Shown here: piece by piece, positions 20,005 to 27,641 of the stretch
Layout: every line of letters starts with the position of its first letter
Position numbering within the stretch: position 1 is the stretch's first letter
From: an uncultured Alphaproteobacteria bacterium
GTDB lineage: Bacteria > Pseudomonadota > Alphaproteobacteria > CAAHEQ01 > UBA3637
DNA length: 64,000 nt
NCBI GenBank assembly: GCA_944393195.1
Contig: CALXZG010000001.1
Span: forward strand, 62,001 to 126,000
Direction: 5' to 3'
Made by a program: the position numbers and the translations under genes
The notes under the pieces: generated by a model
The model's database searches: none
The model's input: only the letters and a program-made list of their open reading frames with translations
What the model was told of the DNA's origin: nothing

Positions 20005-20138
20005 CGTCATCCCTTATTATCCTTGCGCAAGCGAGGATCTTGGGACATTAAAAATCTGTCATCACCTATAATTCTACGTCATCCCTGCGAAAGCGGGGAT
20101 CTTTTAACACATTACCACACAAAAAACACCATCCACGA
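20005..20138 (+). repeat. Palindromic repeat pair (R4, R5) with tail
   Basis: Two palindromes of the GTCATCC...GGGATC family lie at 20005-20040 and 20077-20108. The second is followed by the same ACAAAAAACACCATCC tail seen at 1990-2010 and 22980-23000. The ~120-bp core of the compound element is missing here. Confidence 0.8.
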
Positions 20139-20229: not shown

Positions 20230-20263
20230 GTGTAACATTTTAATGTTCCTTTTTGTGTTACAC
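20230..20263 (+). promoter_or_regulatory. 34-nt inverted repeat, distal copy, pilin-like gene 1
   Basis: Arms GTGTAACA (20230-20237) and TGTTACAC (20256-20263) around an 18-nt A/T-rich centre. The same 34-nt format recurs at 20361-20394, 23085-23118 and 23228-23261. Confidence 0.65.
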
Positions 20264-20328
20264 TTTTTGACGCGATGCAACTTTTTCACAAAATGACTGA
20301 AAGTTTTTAGAATATAAATATTTTTCTC

Positions 20329-20394
20329 TTGCTTTATATTTCCCACCTATGCTATAAAATCTATAACAATTTAATAAACCTTTTTTTGTTATAG
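20329..20394 (+). promoter_or_regulatory. Promoter and proximal 34-nt inverted repeat, pilin-like gene 1
   Basis: TTGCTT (20329-20334) and an extended -10 TGC-TATAAA (20353-20358) are followed 8 nt after the -10 start by an inverted repeat. It has arms CTATAACA (20361-20368) and TGTTATAG (20387-20394). It ends exactly 17 nt before the ATG, with AAAGGAAG between. The predicted transcription start lies inside the left arm. Confidence 0.65.
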
Positions 20395-20411
20395 TCTGAA
20401 AGGAAGTACAA

Positions 20412-22682
20412 ATGATTGAAAATCAGTTGAAATTTCGCAAAATGACATCAATGGAAAGTGGCAGAACGATGGTCGAAATTCTGGCAGTGTTGGCGATTAT
20501 GGGTGTCCTGACATTAGGGGCAGTCATGGGGTATCGGTATGCGGTTGATAAATTAAATGCGAATGATATTATTGACGGCGTGAACAAACGGGCGGCGGTT
20601 GCGGCACCGCAACGAATTTTGGGTCAACCGATTAATTTGACCGAATTTCATCCGGACAGTGATATTGATTTGATTAAAGGGGTATATGAAGTCGTGGCGG
20701 TAGATATTCACGGCCGTAATCCGGATTTTTTCAGTTTAACGGCTTATGATATCCAAAAAGGCGTTTGTGATCGGATTATGGATTCGGGGTATGCAGTTCC
20801 TTCGGTCATAGAAGTCAATAGTGTTGCTCAACTGAATGGTAGTACCTGTGAGGAAAGTGAAGATGGTTTGTATGATATTACGTTTGTTTTTGATAATACA
20901 TTGGGTGAAAAAGAATATCAAGAGTGTGAAATTGATACCGAATGTGGCACAGGGAATATTTGTAATCAAATAACGTCAACCTGTATGCCGATTCCCAAGG
21001 GACAAATCATTGATATTGATGGTAATAGCCATGATTGTAATTCAAATCGACTTATTTTACCGTTAACGGCGTCGGAATGTGATAAGTGTCCAAATCGGAA
21101 AATGTTTTCCGGATACTGCATACCAACGTGTCGGGATGATGAATGGCTTGAACGACAGGAAGGTGGAAGTCAGCCACGCGTTGTTTGTCGCAAATGCGAT
21201 GCTCGAACGGGATGGCATTATGGGACACAAAATCGTGCTTTTTGCGAAGTTTGTCCCGAACGGTATTATTTTGAAGATACCTGGGGAACCGAACACATGT
21301 GTGTTTTAAGGGATTGTGGGGAAGGGTATATATCCTGTAATGATGGATGTTGCGGCTGCGGTGGTGGTGGCGCTATTTCCATAGCCCTTGCACCGACGGG
21401 CAGAGCTTCTTGCGAAGCGTGTAATGATCCGACTTTCGGACCACGGGAAGTTGTAGGGAATCTCTGTCGTGTCAGAAATTGTCCGGCAGGGTATTTCCGG
21501 TACAATAACGATTGCATTGCTTGTTCATCAACGAACTCCTATGATGTTTCCAATGCAACTAATCGTGCCAATTGTCTGGCGTGTACGGATGACAATGGCA
21601 ATAAAATGCGGCGATTGAATGGACAATCCTGTGTCTTGGCCTCCAAATGTTTACATGGAACACAGGAGGATGATCCGAGTACGCCGGATGTCGATGAATC
21701 GATTTATTGCGCAGATTGTCCGCCGGATACTTTCCCGGTAGGAAATGAATGTAAATCGTGTGATGATAATTATTGGTATGAAGTCAGTCCCGAAATATGC
21801 GCCCGATGCGGGGATAAACGCTTTGTGCGTGAATCTTTCCAGACATTTGAGTGGTGGTGGAAATCTAATGTCTGTATGCGGGTGAAAAAAGATGGGGAAT
21901 TTTATTCCAGTGCCGGAACGCAGGCGTGCACCTATACCGGCAATACGCTTGATAATGGGGATTGCGGATCTTGTGGTGATTTACGTGTCATAACGCAAGA
22001 TGCAAATACTAATGAACGATATTGTACTTTGGCTTGTCAGGAAGGGGAATTCATGGCGATTGGGGGAACGTGTTATTCCTGTGATGCGGCGGCATCGCCC
22101 AATTTGAGCTCAATCAATCATGTACGACAATATTGTTCAAGTGTTTGTCCGGGGCAACGATATTTGCGTTCGGGGAAGTGTGCCAAGTGTCCGGCTGGGA
22201 CATATAGCATTGGTTCTAATGCAACCTCCTGCGACGGTGTTTGTCCGACGGATCGAACGGGATTGGCAAAAGGGCCGTGTATTGCTTGCGGAGGAAAGTG
22301 GGATGGAACGACCTGTGATGGGCAGGGATGTGCTTCCGGTGAGTACAATAAAAACGGTATATGTACGACCTGTCCGGAAGATTTATCTGATTTTACCGGT
22401 GCGATTAACGAAACGTATTGTCGGGCGTGTGGTGGGTTATGGAATAACCTGAGTTACAAATGCTGTCCGTCTTCCGATTTTTCCAGCCTGAAAAATCAAA
22501 ATGATTGTGAGGGATGTTACGGTCAATGGGCCAATAATACGTGTACCAAATGTCCGACAGGATACTGGGGAGGTGATGGTGTTTGTAATCAATGTTTGGC
22601 ATATGCCGATATTTCGGATCAATTGAATTGTCAGGTTTGCGGTGGATCTTGGAATGCCGAAACAGAAACCTGTTCATCATAA
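20412..22682 (+). CDS. Large Cys-rich pilin-like surface protein
   Basis: A 756-residue protein. Residues 1-15 are a short basic leader, then 'ESGRTMVEILAVLAIMGVL', a prepilin-like cleavage and helix motif with Arg at +1. A pilin-like body follows to about residue 170 ('YDIQKGVCDRIM' and a distal Cys). The remaining ~580 residues are tandem Cys-rich modules with CxxC pairs. One segment ('CPAGTYSIGSNATSC') looks like a GCC2/GCC3 ephrin-receptor-type module. I infer a membrane-anchored or pilus-tip adhesin stabilised by many disulfides. Ligand unknown. It shares its control region with the gene at 23279. A terminator follows. Confidence 0.75.
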   Translation: MIENQLKFRKMTSMESGRTMVEILAVLAIMGVLTLGAVMGYRYAVDKLNANDIIDGVNKRAAVAAPQRILGQPINLTEFHPDSDIDLIKGVYEVVAVDIHGRNPDFFSLTAYDIQKGVCDRIMDSGYAVPSVIEVNSVAQLNGSTCEESEDGLYDITFVFDNTLGEKEYQECEIDTECGTGNICNQITSTCMPIPKGQIIDIDGNSHDCNSNRLILPLTASECDKCPNRKMFSGYCIPTCRDDEWLERQEGGSQPRVVCRKCDARTGWHYGTQNRAFCEVCPERYYFEDTWGTEHMCVLRDCGEGYISCNDGCCGCGGGGAISIALAPTGRASCEACNDPTFGPREVVGNLCRVRNCPAGYFRYNNDCIACSSTNSYDVSNATNRANCLACTDDNGNKMRRLNGQSCVLASKCLHGTQEDDPSTPDVDESIYCADCPPDTFPVGNECKSCDDNYWYEVSPEICARCGDKRFVRESFQTFEWWWKSNVCMRVKKDGEFYSSAGTQACTYTGNTLDNGDCGSCGDLRVITQDANTNERYCTLACQEGEFMAIGGTCYSCDAAASPNLSSINHVRQYCSSVCPGQRYLRSGKCAKCPAGTYSIGSNATSCDGVCPTDRTGLAKGPCIACGGKWDGTTCDGQGCASGEYNKNGICTTCPEDLSDFTGAINETYCRACGGLWNNLSYKCCPSSDFSSLKNQNDCEGCYGQWANNTCTKCPTGYWGGDGVCNQCLAYADISDQLNCQVCGGSWNAETETCSS

Positions 22683-22700
22683 CGCAGTCCGCTGTACAAT

Positions 22701-22731
22701 AAAAGCCGTCTTTAAGGCGGCTTTTTTGTTA
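22701..22731 (+). terminator. Terminator of pilin-like gene 1
   Basis: Stem AAAGCCGTC / GGCGGCTTT (with one G-T pair) followed by TTTTTGTT, 18 bp after the stop codon. Confidence 0.8.
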
Positions 22732-22770
22732 TATTATTTATGATTGTGGCGTTTCTATTTTTTTTAATCG

Positions 22771-23000
22771 TCATCCTCTATAATTTTACGTCACCCCCGA
22801 CCTGATCGGGGATCTTTTGACCATCTTACTCCCTTTCCAATTCCAACATCCGCTTGCCGGCGGCGACTTCCGCTGCCTTGGCGCGCGGTGTTTCATTGCT
22901 TTGCGCATCAAAACTTGCCACCGGCAACTTTTGATTTACGCAGTATCCCCAACCTGATCGGGGATCTTTTGACATCTCCCACACACAAAAAACACTATCC
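22771..23000 (+). repeat. Compound palindromic repeat element, copy 2
   Basis: Palindromes at 22789-22821 and 22943-22973 flank a ~120-bp core that is nearly identical to 1842-1950. The tail ACAAAAAACACTATCC follows. The palindrome after the core is a different sub-type (CCCCAACCTGATCGGGG) from that of copy 1 (CCCCGCACAAGCGGGG). So cores and palindromes may move or convert independently. 23001-23084 holds nothing further that I recognise. Confidence 0.8.
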
Positions 23001-23084
23001 ACGGCTTTAACCCGTGAATCTGTCACTATTTTACTTTTTTCCGATTTGGAAAGAGCCCTTTGTTGTGATGAAAAATAATTCAGA

Positions 23085-23131
23085 GTGTAACAATTTAATG
23101 TTCATTAAAATGTTATAGATTTTTATAACAT
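23085..23131 (+). promoter_or_regulatory. 34-nt inverted repeat, distal copy, pilin-like gene 2
   Basis: GTGTAACA (23085-23092) and TGTTATAG (23111-23118) flank 18 nt, as in gene 1. The right arm also takes part in a second tight palindrome, ATGTTATA-GATTTT-TATAACAT (23110-23131). Confidence 0.6.
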
Positions 23132-23219
23132 AAAACTATAATCGAATACAAGCTCTTTTTTTAATATTTTGCATTTTTTTGAAATGGTTATGTAAGGCCG
23201 TCGAAAGAGGGAATTTGGG

Positions 23220-23261
23220 TATAAAAAGTATAACAAAAAAAGGAACATTTTTTTGTTATAG
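23220..23261 (+). promoter_or_regulatory. -10 box and proximal 34-nt inverted repeat, pilin-like gene 2
   Basis: TATAAA at 23220-23225 stands 8 nt before the inverted repeat at 23228-23261. The repeat's arms GTATAACA and TGTTATAG extend inward to a 13-bp stem with loop GGAACA. The repeat ends 17 nt before the ATG, exactly as in gene 1. No convincing -35 is visible. Confidence 0.6.
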
Positions 23262-23278
23262 TTGAAAAGGAGCGATAA

Positions 23279-24631
23279 ATGACTGAAACAAAAAATAAAA
23301 ACGGAAAAAGTGGTGTGTATCAAAATAGTGATTTAGGGGCATCGGGTGTGTGTCATAAGACCCCCGATCAGGTCGGGGATGACGGTTTAACAGTAGGGAG
23401 TGGGCGTTCAAAGATCCCCGCTTTCGCAGGGATGACGGAGAATATAGGGGGCGCAGGGATGAGAGAGAATAAAGAGCGCAGGGATGATGGATGGGATAAA
23501 AAAACAGGGATGGCGGAAAAAAATAAAACGCGCAGAGATAACGAACAATATTCTTGGATTGAGGGGATGAACGGTATCATGTCGTCCGAATCGGGGAAGA
23601 GTATGGTTGAAATGCTGGGCGTGTTGGCTTTAATGGGATTGTTGGCCGTGTTGGGTGCCAAAGGATACAGCATGGCCATGGAACGGGCAACCGCCAATCG
23701 GATCGTGGAGGAAATCAATCGACGCTCCATTGTCTATTCACAACAATTGTTGATGACAACCTCCAATACCGCCCTGAACCATTCGGAACTGGCAACGGAA
23801 ATCGAGGGCGGATATCCGGTCTCCGGCAACCGTTTCGGGGACGATTATTTTCAAATCGTCGTTCAAAAGCTTCCCCAAAATATCTGTACTCGGATTGGTA
23901 AACTGGGTTACGCCCGCGCCATACAGGTGTTGGCAAACGGAACAGCCTTAACCACCGCCGATCAATCGGCGTGTCAAGCTACCGGAAACGTGTTGATCTT
24001 TACATTTACCAAAGATATGACGCCGTGCGATGAATGTTTAAATAATACGAAGAGCTGTGAAACGGATAGCCAATGCGCGACAAATCAAACATGTCAAAAT
24101 GGTATGTGCTTGTGTTCACCGTATTACGCGTGTAACGGGACATGTTGTCCGGCAGGTCAATTTTGTGTAAACGGACAATGTTCGGCGAATGACAGTTGTC
24201 AAAGCACGGACGATTGTGATCAAGGATTGTGTATTAGCGGAAAATGTCAATGTCGGAGCTACCGAGATAATTGTACATATTTCTGTCAAATGAGTAGTCC
24301 AAGCTATGGTGTTTGTTCGACAGGGGCATATTATGAAGAAGGGGCGTTCAGTATGGCCGGCACGGTTTGGTCTACGAAAACGCTGAATTGGTACACGGCA
24401 TCGGATTTTTGCGCATCGTTGGGAAAAGAAATGGTGAGTTTGGAGGATTTGGGATGTGTTGCGGCCGGAGATACCTATACCTGTACCATTCCGGAAAAAT
24501 TTAAAGGACATGGGACTGTTTGGACGACGGATTGGAAGGATAGTTCAAATATTTGGTTTGTCAACACTACGTCAGGCGCGGTCGCGTCTAACGTTTGGCA
24601 CGCCATGCACCCCGTCGCCCTCTGCCATTAA
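23279..24631 (+). CDS. Cys-rich pilin-like protein with C-type-lectin-like C-terminus and repeat-derived N-terminal insertion
   Basis: The 450-residue frame starts at the ATG that matches the conserved 17-nt spacing to the upstream inverted repeat. Residues ~20-100 are translated palindromic repeats ('TPDQVGDDG', 'KIPAFAGMTE') and degenerate copies. The prepilin motif follows at ~104 ('ESGKSMVEMLGVLALMG', Lys at +1). Then come a pilin body ('LPQNICTRIG'), a Cys-rich stretch (260-345), and a final ~100 residues ('ASDFCASLGKEMVSLEDLGC', split Trp motifs, closing Cys) resembling a C-type-lectin-like fold. An internal ATG at 23579 with GAGGGG upstream could give a normal short leader. Confidence 0.72.
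   Translation: MTETKNKNGKSGVYQNSDLGASGVCHKTPDQVGDDGLTVGSGRSKIPAFAGMTENIGGAGMRENKERRDDGWDKKTGMAEKNKTRRDNEQYSWIEGMNGIMSSESGKSMVEMLGVLALMGLLAVLGAKGYSMAMERATANRIVEEINRRSIVYSQQLLMTTSNTALNHSELATEIEGGYPVSGNRFGDDYFQIVVQKLPQNICTRIGKLGYARAIQVLANGTALTTADQSACQATGNVLIFTFTKDMTPCDECLNNTKSCETDSQCATNQTCQNGMCLCSPYYACNGTCCPAGQFCVNGQCSANDSCQSTDDCDQGLCISGKCQCRSYRDNCTYFCQMSSPSYGVCSTGAYYEEGAFSMAGTVWSTKTLNWYTASDFCASLGKEMVSLEDLGCVAAGDTYTCTIPEKFKGHGTVWTTDWKDSSNIWFVNTTSGAVASNVWHAMHPVALCH
23353..23438 (-). repeat. Two palindromic repeats inside the pilin-like coding sequence (R8, R9)
   Basis: Reverse-oriented copies of the GTCATCC...GGGGATC family at 23353-23384 and 23410-23438 lie in frame within the N-terminal coding region. 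Fragments containing GCAGGGATGA continue to about 23490. Confidence 0.8.
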
Positions 24632-24674: not shown

Positions 24675-25631
24675 CTATTTATGATTGTGTGCCCGGGGGT
24701 GTGAACTGTCATAAACTTCCTGTAAATGCTCCATGGTGATTTCGGTATAACGCTGCGTCGCCGATAACGAAGCGTGCCCCAATAATTCCTGTACCGTTCG
24801 TAAATCTCCGCCTCCTTGTAACAAATGTGTGGCAAAGCTATGCCGCAGTGCATGCGGTGTTACCGTGTCCGGCAGATTGAGGTACCGCCGAATTGCCCGG
24901 ACATTCCTTTGGACAACGCCGGGATTAATGCGATCCCCTCGGGCACCGATAAATAAAGGTGTTTGCCCCCCGGGATTGGAACGGGCTTTTAAATAGGTCA
25001 CCACCGCTTTGCGTACTGCCGGTAAAATCGGAATCATCCGTTGTTTATTTCCTTTACCGGTAATGGTAAACGTTTCCCCGCGCACAGGAAAGTCCGCAAC
25101 ATTTAAAGATAATGCCTCGGCTATCCGTAAACCGCACCCGTACATCATCATGTATAAAGCAACATCACGTTTAGCCTCCCATGGTTCTTTGGCGATTTTG
25201 CGGGCTGCGTCCAAAAAACGGCCGGCATCCGTGACGGATAAAGGCTTGGGCAATATTTTTCCAGGCCTGGCCGATCGAATGGCCATAATGGCGGTATTTT
25301 CCAAAATATGATTGCGCATTAAATACTTGAAAAAATTACGAACCGCCGACATTCCGCGGGCAATGCTAGCACGTGAAATATGCAACTCCGACCGCCAAAC
25401 CAAAAAAGACCGAAAATCGGAAACGGTTAATGTTTTTAAATCATGCAGGTCAACACGACCCCCGATATGATCAAATAAAAACGTAAAAAATTCCTTAATA
25501 TCCCGATAATAGGATTCGCCCGTTTTATCCGATAACCGTCGCTCTAACAATAAATTTTGTTGCCACTCATCAACGATGACCTGTAATTTTTCCGCACAAG
25601 TTTCATCAATAGTCTTGTATTCTGTCGTCAT
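24675..25631 (-). CDS. xerC: Tyrosine recombinase XerC
   Basis: Resolves chromosome dimers at dif with XerD. The start is taken as ATG 25631 ('MTTEYKTIDET'), which has AGGA 9 bp upstream; a longer frame would run into the divergent priA start. The 318-residue protein has the SAM-like N-domain and the catalytic set: Arg in 'GCGLRIAEAL', Lys in 'TGKGNKQRMIP', HxxR in 'PHALRHSFATHLL', and His and Tyr in 'LGHASLSATQRYTE'. It sits beside priA, as is usual in alphaproteobacteria. It is convergent with the preceding pilin-like gene. Confidence 0.92.
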   Translation of the reverse strand: MTTEYKTIDETCAEKLQVIVDEWQQNLLLERRLSDKTGESYYRDIKEFFTFLFDHIGGRVDLHDLKTLTVSDFRSFLVWRSELHISRASIARGMSAVRNFFKYLMRNHILENTAIMAIRSARPGKILPKPLSVTDAGRFLDAARKIAKEPWEAKRDVALYMMMYGCGLRIAEALSLNVADFPVRGETFTITGKGNKQRMIPILPAVRKAVVTYLKARSNPGGQTPLFIGARGDRINPGVVQRNVRAIRRYLNLPDTVTPHALRHSFATHLLQGGGDLRTVQELLGHASLSATQRYTEITMEHLQEVYDSSHPRAHNHK

Positions 25632-25682
25632 TTTTTGTATCCTGTCTGTACTTATGATTAATATAAAGGAAAATAAATCAAA

Positions 25683-27641
25683 ATGCAACGTTTGACTGTT
25701 TTAATGCCGGCGCCTTTGGGATGTTATGATTACGCCGCGGAAACCGATATCGCCCCCGGTACGTTTGTCCGTGTCCCTTTCGGTCGGAAAGAAAATGTCG
25801 GCGTTGTATGGGATCAGGCACCGGATAATACGATTCCCGATACCAAAGTCAAATCCGTCACAACCGTTCTGGATATACCACCTTTGCCGTCCGAAACAAT
25901 CCGTTTCGTTAATTGGGTGGCCGGGTATACCCTCTCCCCCTTGGGTATGGTTTTGAAAATGGCCTTAATTCCGGATATGGAAAAAGAAAGTAAACACTCT
26001 TTGTCTTTTGCTCATCCGATTCCCGATTTTCAAACAGTGGCCTTTTCCGATGCCCAAACCGCCGCCGTTCGGAAATTAATCGGTAAAATGGGGCAAGGCT
26101 TTACTGTTTCCCTGTTGGACGGTGTGACCGGCTCCGGAAAAACCGAAGTATATTTCGAAATGATGGCTTCGGCCTTACGAGCGCAAACTCCTGTTTTGGT
26201 TTTATTACCGGAAATAACCCTGACAACGGCTTGGTTGGAACGATTTGAAAAACGATTCGGTGTCCGCCCCGCCGTATGGCATTCCTCTTTAACCCCGAAA
26301 CAACGCCGTGATACGTGGCAGGCGGTTGCCGCCGGTCAGGCTCCTGTTGTTGTCGGGGCGCGATCGGCGCTGTTTTTACCGTATCAAAAACTCGGTTTGA
26401 TTATCGTGGATGAAGAACATGACGCCTCTTTTAAACAAGAAGATGGTGTTTTGTATCAGGCGCGCGATATGGCTATCGTTCGCGCTAAAATCGCCAATTG
26501 CCCTATCGTATTGGCATCGGCAACACCTTCGGTTGAAACATATTGTAATGTCGCCGCCGGCCGGTATGACCACATTCTGTTGCCCGAACGTTTTTCCGGA
26601 GCCGTTTTCCCGGATATTCATATCGTTGATATGCGTCGAAAAGAAAAAGGAAAAATTTCGTTTATTTCCCCTTTGTTGCGCGATTTGTTGGCGGCTCGTT
26701 TGGCGGCCAAAGAACAATCCCTTTTGTTTATTAATCGACGGGGATATGCACCACTGATTTTGTGTCGCGCTTGCGGGGAAAGAATCCAATGCCCGCATTG
26801 TTCAGCTTGGTTGGTAGAACACCGGCATCAAAAATGTCTGCAATGCCACCATTGCGGCTATACACGTCCCGTTCCGACCGTTTGCCCGGCTTGTCAGGAG
26901 GAGGGAACACTTATTGCCTGTGGCCCCGGTGTGGAAAGAATTGAAGAGGAGGTTCGGCTTTTGTTTCCGGAGGCCGTTTGTGCCGCCGTTACCTCCGATA
27001 CATTGGCCGATGTTCGTCAGTTTGAAACGTTACTGGAACGTATTGCCGCCCATGAAATTGATATCCTAATCGGTACGCAAATGTTGGCCAAAGGACATAA
27101 TTTTCCTGATTTGACATTAGTCGGTGTCATAGATGCGGATATGGGATTGGCCGGTGGTGATTTGCGGGCCAGTGAACGAACCTTTCAATTGTTGCATCAG
27201 GTAATGGGGCGTGCCGGCCGTGATCGCAAAAAAGGGGAGGCGGTTTTGCAATCCTATTGCCCTGAAAACCTGATTATTCAGGCTTTACAGGCAAACGATC
27301 GCCATCGTTTTATGGACGAGGAAATTGCATCGCGTGAGGTGTTGGGCATGCCGCCCTTTGGTCGCTTGGCTGCTGTGATTGTCAGTGGTAGGGATCAAAA
27401 CCAAACGTATCGGATAGCGGCCGATTTGGCCAAGAAAGCCCCCTATATCCCCAATGTATCCGTATTAGGGCCGGTGGCCGCTCCGTTGGCTGTTTTACGC
27501 GGTCGGTATCGGTTTCGATTGTTGGTTAAAACACCACGGGACTTTAAATTGCAAAATATGTTGATGTCATGGTTGTCCCGTGTGCCTGTGCCGGCCGGTG
27601 TGGATGTCCGTCTGGATATTGATCCGTATAGTTTCTTTTAA
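25683..27641 (+). CDS. priA: Primosomal replication protein N' (PriA helicase)
   Basis: A 652-residue 3'-5' helicase that restarts stalled forks. Walker A 'GVTGSGKTEVYFEM', DEAH-type box 'IVDEEHDASFK', motif 'LASATPSVET', an eight-cysteine zinc region between 'CRACGERIQCPHC' and 'CPACQEEG', and helicase motif 'GTQMLAKGHNFPD' are in order. The N-terminal 3'BD is present but short, making the protein somewhat smaller than E. coli PriA. It starts about 50 bp from the divergent xerC. Confidence 0.95.
   Translation: MQRLTVLMPAPLGCYDYAAETDIAPGTFVRVPFGRKENVGVVWDQAPDNTIPDTKVKSVTTVLDIPPLPSETIRFVNWVAGYTLSPLGMVLKMALIPDMEKESKHSLSFAHPIPDFQTVAFSDAQTAAVRKLIGKMGQGFTVSLLDGVTGSGKTEVYFEMMASALRAQTPVLVLLPEITLTTAWLERFEKRFGVRPAVWHSSLTPKQRRDTWQAVAAGQAPVVVGARSALFLPYQKLGLIIVDEEHDASFKQEDGVLYQARDMAIVRAKIANCPIVLASATPSVETYCNVAAGRYDHILLPERFSGAVFPDIHIVDMRRKEKGKISFISPLLRDLLAARLAAKEQSLLFINRRGYAPLILCRACGERIQCPHCSAWLVEHRHQKCLQCHHCGYTRPVPTVCPACQEEGTLIACGPGVERIEEEVRLLFPEAVCAAVTSDTLADVRQFETLLERIAAHEIDILIGTQMLAKGHNFPDLTLVGVIDADMGLAGGDLRASERTFQLLHQVMGRAGRDRKKGEAVLQSYCPENLIIQALQANDRHRFMDEEIASREVLGMPPFGRLAAVIVSGRDQNQTYRIAADLAKKAPYIPNVSVLGPVAAPLAVLRGRYRFRLLVKTPRDFKLQNMLMSWLSRVPVPAGVDVRLDIDPYSFF

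Follow-up and report, generated by a model that had tools for sequence, protein, structure and literature searches.

Palindromic 34-bp repeats upstream of pilin-like genes in an uncultured alphaproteobacterium: probable invertible promoters and a candidate Mpi-family invertase

Pilin phase variation by DNA inversion is known from Moraxella, in which Piv, an IS110-type enzyme, inverts coding sequence. Promoter inversion governed by a master invertase has so far been known mainly from Bacteroides. In Bacteroides fragilis the master invertase Mpi brings about global promoter inversion (Coyne 2003, as cited in PMC4747536), and the account in PMC4747536 gives the number of its regions as 13. The fim switch of E. 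coli is, as described in PMC5763102, a single switch of 314 bp. A survey of inversions reported none in its four alphaproteobacterial samples (PMC5903667), and no description of a multi-promoter inversion regulon in Alphaproteobacteria was found in the literature that we searched. Here we report that 34-mer repeats preceding pilin-like genes in the genome of an uncultured alphaproteobacterium are most likely the ends of invertible promoter switches of about 100 bases, and not binding sites of a regulator.

The window, as we call the whole stretch of 64,000 nucleotides that was analysed, contains two pilin-like genes, each preceded by two copies of the repeat (Table 1). The first-pass annotation of this DNA had described these four copies as 34-nt elements of the form STRTAACA-N18-TGTTAYAS. 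All four are present with 0 mismatches, and they are the only matches in the window when up to 2 mismatches are allowed (chance expectation 0.10); four sites were reached in none of 100 shuffles of the window. The spacings of 131 and 143 given for the two pairs agree with the start-to-start distances, and the proximal copies end, as had been claimed, 17 nt before ATG 20412 and ATG 23279. A TATAAA beginning 8 nt before the proximal copy is found in both genes; in gene 1 it is the -10 element of a promoter with a matching -35, and in gene 2, where no -35 is visible, it probably has no such role. Two other descriptions had to be revised. The middle of the repeat had been given as 18 A/T-rich nt, and the 34-mer turned out to be a near-perfect palindrome that runs through a conserved centre, ATGTTC or GTAC. 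The remaining flanking DNA had been said to differ between the genes, and the 97-nt interior at gene 1 is of one family with the interiors of other loci, relative to which it lies inverted.

Table 1. Coordinates of the two window switches and their genes, and type A units grouped by orientation
Feature	Position	Strand	Remarks
Distal inversion site, switch 1	20230..20263	+	outer half GTGTAACATTTTA; core ATGTTC at 20243-20248; inner half exchanged
Invertible interior, switch 1	20264..20360	+	type A, 97 nt; inverted with respect to most type A loci
Predicted promoter, directed toward gene 1	20329..20358	+	TTGCTT 20329-20334, 18-nt spacer, TATAAA 20353-20358
Proximal inversion site, switch 1	20361..20394	+	core AAACCT at 20376-20381 (usual GAACAT)
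Gene 1	20412..22682	+	756-aa Cys-rich pilin-like protein; processing motif G/RTMVE
Distal inversion site, switch 2	23085..23118	+	exact 34-mer match
Interior, switch 2	23119..23227	+	type C, 109 nt; majority orientation; identical at two other loci
Predicted promoter, switch 2, pointing away from gene 2	23122..23151	-	TTGTAT 23151-23146, 18-nt spacer, TATAAA 23127-23122
Proximal inversion site, switch 2	23228..23261	+	exact 34-mer match
Gene 2	23279..24631	+	450-aa pilin-like protein; C-terminal ALCH-type variable end
Forward type A units	L016:7754, L020:13048, L021:11301, L024:4223, L026:4780, L146:1198		
Inverted type A units	window gene 1, L018:15637, L032:4679, L143, L192:20		

The genome-wide search that the annotation had proposed was carried out on the genome of the window (G000; 1.15 Mb in 24 contigs, 88.6% complete). 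It gave 63 exact copies of the 34-mer, and a control with the reversed pattern gave 0. The sites are mostly paired, with copies 118, 130-133 or 143 bp apart, and at least 28 complete units stand before pilin-like genes with the proximal site ending 17 nt before the start. In the L143 unit the gap to the gene start is approximately, not exactly, 17 nt; L033 and L034 are among the complete units although their gene start or frame looks damaged, and a few further units lie at contig ends or have no pilin-like neighbour. The sites are strongly biased to pilin-like genes and not randomly placed, and the suggested selection on spacing is borne out by a genome-wide set with fixed positions before such genes. 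Taking together the genome-wide set, the pilin-like bias and the selected spacing, the 34-mer marks a co-controlled gene set, and in this respect the regulon proposed earlier stands.

In an N-terminal alignment of the pilin-like proteins the prepilin motif G/xxxxE followed by a hydrophobic helix was found, with G and E invariant; PF07963 gave a weak match, below the cut-off, in one paralogue. REP-like palindromic repeats (CCCGATCAGGTCGGGGATGACG, PAFAGMT reading) occur in the window at 23279-23590 and also at 20030-20110 and 22780-22990. In gene 2 and several paralogues they are in frame within the leader, the part that prepilin processing would remove.

On the basis of the DNA between the sites the units fall into three types: type A with 96-99 nt and core ATGTTC (11 units), type B with 84 nt and core GTAC (14 units before genes) and type C with 109 nt (3 units before genes). 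Relative to the following gene, the type A interiors are forward at 6 and inverted at 5 of the 11 loci (Table 1). L018 is 90% identical to the type A reference when reverse-complemented and 54% otherwise, and for L032 these values are 94% and 53%. The interior of switch 1 in the window, a diverged member of type A, shows 71% identity inverted and 55% in the other direction. A type B-like switch (L198:1210-1390, G000:C3) precedes a lipoprotein gene (MKQTIATIFVLALLAGCSPYHRG), the sole non-pilin target seen.

The half-sites bear on how the two directions could have arisen. In a forward unit the distal site consists of the outer half GTGTAACAATTTA, the core ATGTTC and a TTTTAA-type inner half; at the proximal site the inner half is of the AAAAAA type. 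Inverted units keep the same outer halves, with the inner halves swapped. This pattern, a constant outer half and an inner half that moves with the interior, was seen in three of three clean inverted units and in all six forward units. Outer halves that are kept and inner halves that are exchanged are the expected product of strand exchange inside the core and thus a footprint of conservative DNA inversion. Of the five type A units that lie inverted, two (window gene 1 and L143) have a damaged core, so some of these units may be fixed. All 14 type B and all 3 type C units before genes have one orientation throughout, which restricts the demonstration of flipping to type A. The type B core GTAC is self-complementary, and the single orientation of types B and C contrasts with type A.

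The evidence on orientation comes from comparisons between paralogous loci and from one contig end. No locus was found in both orientations, either in the G000 assembly or in a scan of the public collection with the own genome left out. Contigs of the G000 assembly overlap by 77 bases, and contig C9 ends ...GTGTAACATTTTAATGTTC, at the last base common to both orientations, before the crossover, in a single-copy flank. This one case fits the presence of both orientations in the sampled population. The contig ends C18/C21/C14 and C7/C12 have switch interiors in common, which is no proof of a flip. Some units are hybrid (L019:5379-5544, L031:3950-4109 and L020:4004-4037), with distal-type outer halves on both sides or mixed A/B halves; they look as if exchange between loci had taken place.

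Read in the inverted direction, the interiors end with TTGCNN (TTGTAT in type C), a spacing of 17-18 nt, and TATAAA or TACAYA near the site. Among the 14 type B copies TATAAA is invariant and 10 of the 17 spacer columns vary; outside the hexamers and spacer 7 of 55 columns vary. When type A units were scanned for promoters, the best score toward the gene averaged 8.1 in inverted and 3.7 in forward units, and in several units the best-scoring site was farther upstream than the named hexamer pair. The scan does not separate the directions of type B (5.7 vs 5.9). From the conservation of the hexamers and the asymmetry of the type A scores, the forward orientation is read as OFF and the inverted one as ON. 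For types B and C we infer the ON/OFF calls; the OFF call for type B rests on conservation, the scan being neutral. By this reading 5 of the 28 units would be ON, all of them type A.

Applied to the window, this reading predicts, from the direction of the promoter, that gene 1 is ON. Because the core of its proximal site is mutated, switch 1 may be locked in this state. Gene 2 is predicted to be OFF, since the predicted promoter of switch 2 points away from it. The position and design of this promoter are as in types A and B, and the TATAAA that begins 8 nt before the proximal copy is probably coincidental.

We consider it very probable that pairs of 34-bp palindromes bound invertible promoters that are flipped by the Mpi-family invertase of this genome. 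The serine invertase would act at the centre of both inverted sites, recombining them and flipping the 84-109 bp in between. In the majority orientation the one promoter of the segment would lie near the end adjoining the distal site and read away from the gene (OFF); once the segment is flipped, the promoter would be just upstream of the pilin-like gene (ON), with the predicted transcription start inside the proximal site. Since at least 28 units stand before pilin-like genes in a 1.15-Mb genome, the cell could vary which surface filament protein is made, the genes being switched one by one. The sites and their positions, the type A orientations with half-site exchange, the promoter conservation, the membership in the Mpi family and the exclusive co-occurrence described below are read from the sequence; that the Mpi-family enzyme acts on the 34-mer sites we infer from this co-occurrence, and inversion would be ongoing.

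A single small serine invertase is intact in the genome (G000:C8:25265-25906; L090:7262-7906); it scores 282 bits against NF009949 (NCBIfam 'master DNA invertase Mpi family', cut-off 272) and 107 bits for the Resolvase domain. Its gene is not adjacent to any switch. A truncated Mpi-family relic in L031, from another branch of the family than the intact invertase, ends a few bases before a switch, and there is one large serine recombinase. An IS110/Piv-type invertase was dropped as the flipping enzyme since no IS110-type match was found in the window's genome. Its position beside gene 2 led us to consider the XerC gene of the window (24675-25688); this gene also borders priA (25683-27641) and has the look of the housekeeping one. 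With an assembly 88.6% complete, a further recombinase could have gone unsequenced.

The intact invertase forms a clade with its relative in G003 (79% identity, support 100/99), and the next best match among 43 family genomes is at 59%. Within these 43 genomes the 34-mer sites are found in G000 and G003 only, and the same is true of this Mpi-family clade; in the public genome collection, with the own genome left out, G003 was the only record found with sites. G000 and G003 are of the same genus, two other members of which have neither the sites nor the clade, and the match between sites and invertase therefore counts as one co-occurrence, not many. The G003 units have the same promoter layout with core GGTC or GGAC, and one pair (L156/L158) shows opposite orientations. 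In G004 the interiors of the pair L181/L199 (core GGAC) lie inverted to each other before near-identical pilin starts, and in G006 and G008 GATC-centred inverted-repeat pairs precede pilin-like genes, the distances being similar in G006. In this family invertible promoters look like a general feature upstream of pilin-like genes, with sites that differ by genus.

The distribution of the clade also bears on the possibility, which we regard as unlikely, that the promoters are inverted by a tyrosine recombinase, either a 198-aa FimB-sized integrase (G000:C1:232153) or XerC/XerD working at a site that resembles dif. Three such enzymes are encoded in G000 (the window XerC, a XerD-like protein and the 198-aa protein), one of them of FimB size, and by eye the type B centre TAATGTACATTA resembles what we take to be the dif core, a point for this alternative. 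However, XerC/XerD are universal and the sites occur in G000 and G003 only, a distribution that the Mpi clade, by contrast, matches. The 198-aa single-domain enzyme (L066:12121-12717, G000:C1), located beside a tRNA at a contig end, resembles a mobile-element integrase, and its three close relatives are in G002, a genome without sites. A palindrome of about 30 bp lies upstream of its gene.

Less probable still is the paired operator with looping that the first-pass annotation had suggested, in which regulator dimers at both 34-mers would loop the DNA to repress or activate without any recombination. Such an operator would account for palindromic sites at fixed positions before the ATG, for a distal copy whose distance is the same throughout a type and for the single orientation of types B and C. 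It does not predict inverted interiors with half-sites swapped at the centre, as seen at 5 of 11 type A loci; moreover, spacings of 118, 130-133 and 143 are not in one helical phase, and an invertase clade co-occurs with the sites. It is very improbable that the units are MITEs, a small mobile element having landed before the genes in one direction or the other: the many loci with near-identical units, the terminal inverted repeats and the contig breaks at repeats would agree with this, but an inserted element would bring its whole ends and here the inner halves move while the outer ones stay with the flanks, on which ground it was rejected, and the units keep a fixed 17 nt from the start codon of genes whose 5' ends are themselves paralogous, so that their spread fits gene duplication. 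An RNA hairpin at the 5' end, also suggested earlier, was discarded because it does not account for the distal copy: this stands upstream of the promoter in window gene 1, as in the ON units generally; Rfam matches in the window were tRNAs only.

Besides the inferred promoter switches, the pilin-like genes carry signs of a second source of variation. A shared variable 3' end was found in at least 19 (about 20) of them in G000. In the last five codons before GCC-CT the third base is C in 90 of 95 cases, and bases 1 and 2 vary; this NNC pattern is as expected when diversity-generating retroelements mutagenize the adenines of AAC codons. Variable ends with NNC codons and the termini ALCR/ALCH are found in the window at 24560-24631 and in L245-L266, and window gene 2 appears to have an end of the retroelement type. 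The retroelements of G003 (L241) and G004 (L243) comprise an Avd-like protein (below the cut-offs of the models), a template and a reverse transcriptase, with a pilin-like gene and a lectin-like target as neighbours, and the differences between template and variable repeat are all at template A (6/6 in G003, 9/9 in G004). A reverse transcriptase frame of G000 (L240:1355-2161, C1), directly following a pilin-like gene with a variable 3' end, is similar to those of the relatives' retroelements and stops before the YVDD motif, the catalytic part being absent; a template repeat was searched for in the window's genome and not found. With the catalytic part and the template both lacking, the process may be dead in this genome, or the locus incomplete. 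Whether surface diversity has two layers here, a master invertase picking among about 30-40 pilin-like, lectin-like proteins and a retroelement having rewritten about 20 of their binding ends, we consider evenly balanced. No description of promoter inversion and retroelement diversification on one gene family was found in the literature searched.

These observations suggest that the surface filaments of these uncultured bacteria change and that the tips of some have been diversified by a retroelement. At least 28 switches in a genome of 1.15 Mb, over twice the count of Mpi regions, appear to serve one protein family. Relatives with the same design and other core sequences form a natural series in which the specificity of invertases for their sites could be compared, and the claim is cheap to test because metagenome reads that already exist show the orientation directly.

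Among described systems, Mpi is like the present one in its single NF009949-family serine invertase, its promoters scattered over the genome, their inverted-repeat flanks and their association with surface structures. The host here is alphaproteobacterial and there belongs to the Bacteroidales; at least 28 units face 13 regions, pilin-like proteins take the place of capsule operons as targets, every site forms a 34-bp palindrome of its own, and the link of inversion to the enzyme rests on the co-occurrence of clade and sites. The fim switch (FimB/FimE) likewise places a short invertible promoter segment immediately 5' of a filament subunit gene, but it is one switch, served by tyrosine recombinases and controlling chaperone-usher fimbriae, whereas the proteins here are type IV pilin-like. 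Moraxella Piv is comparable as a case of pilin phase variation by DNA inversion and differs in being an IS110-type enzyme, without a match in the window's genome. With Hin/Gin the system would have in common a small serine recombinase with a resolvase domain, palindromic sites and central exchange; Hin inverts one adjacent segment, whereas in this genome dozens of segments, far from one another, would depend on one enzyme.
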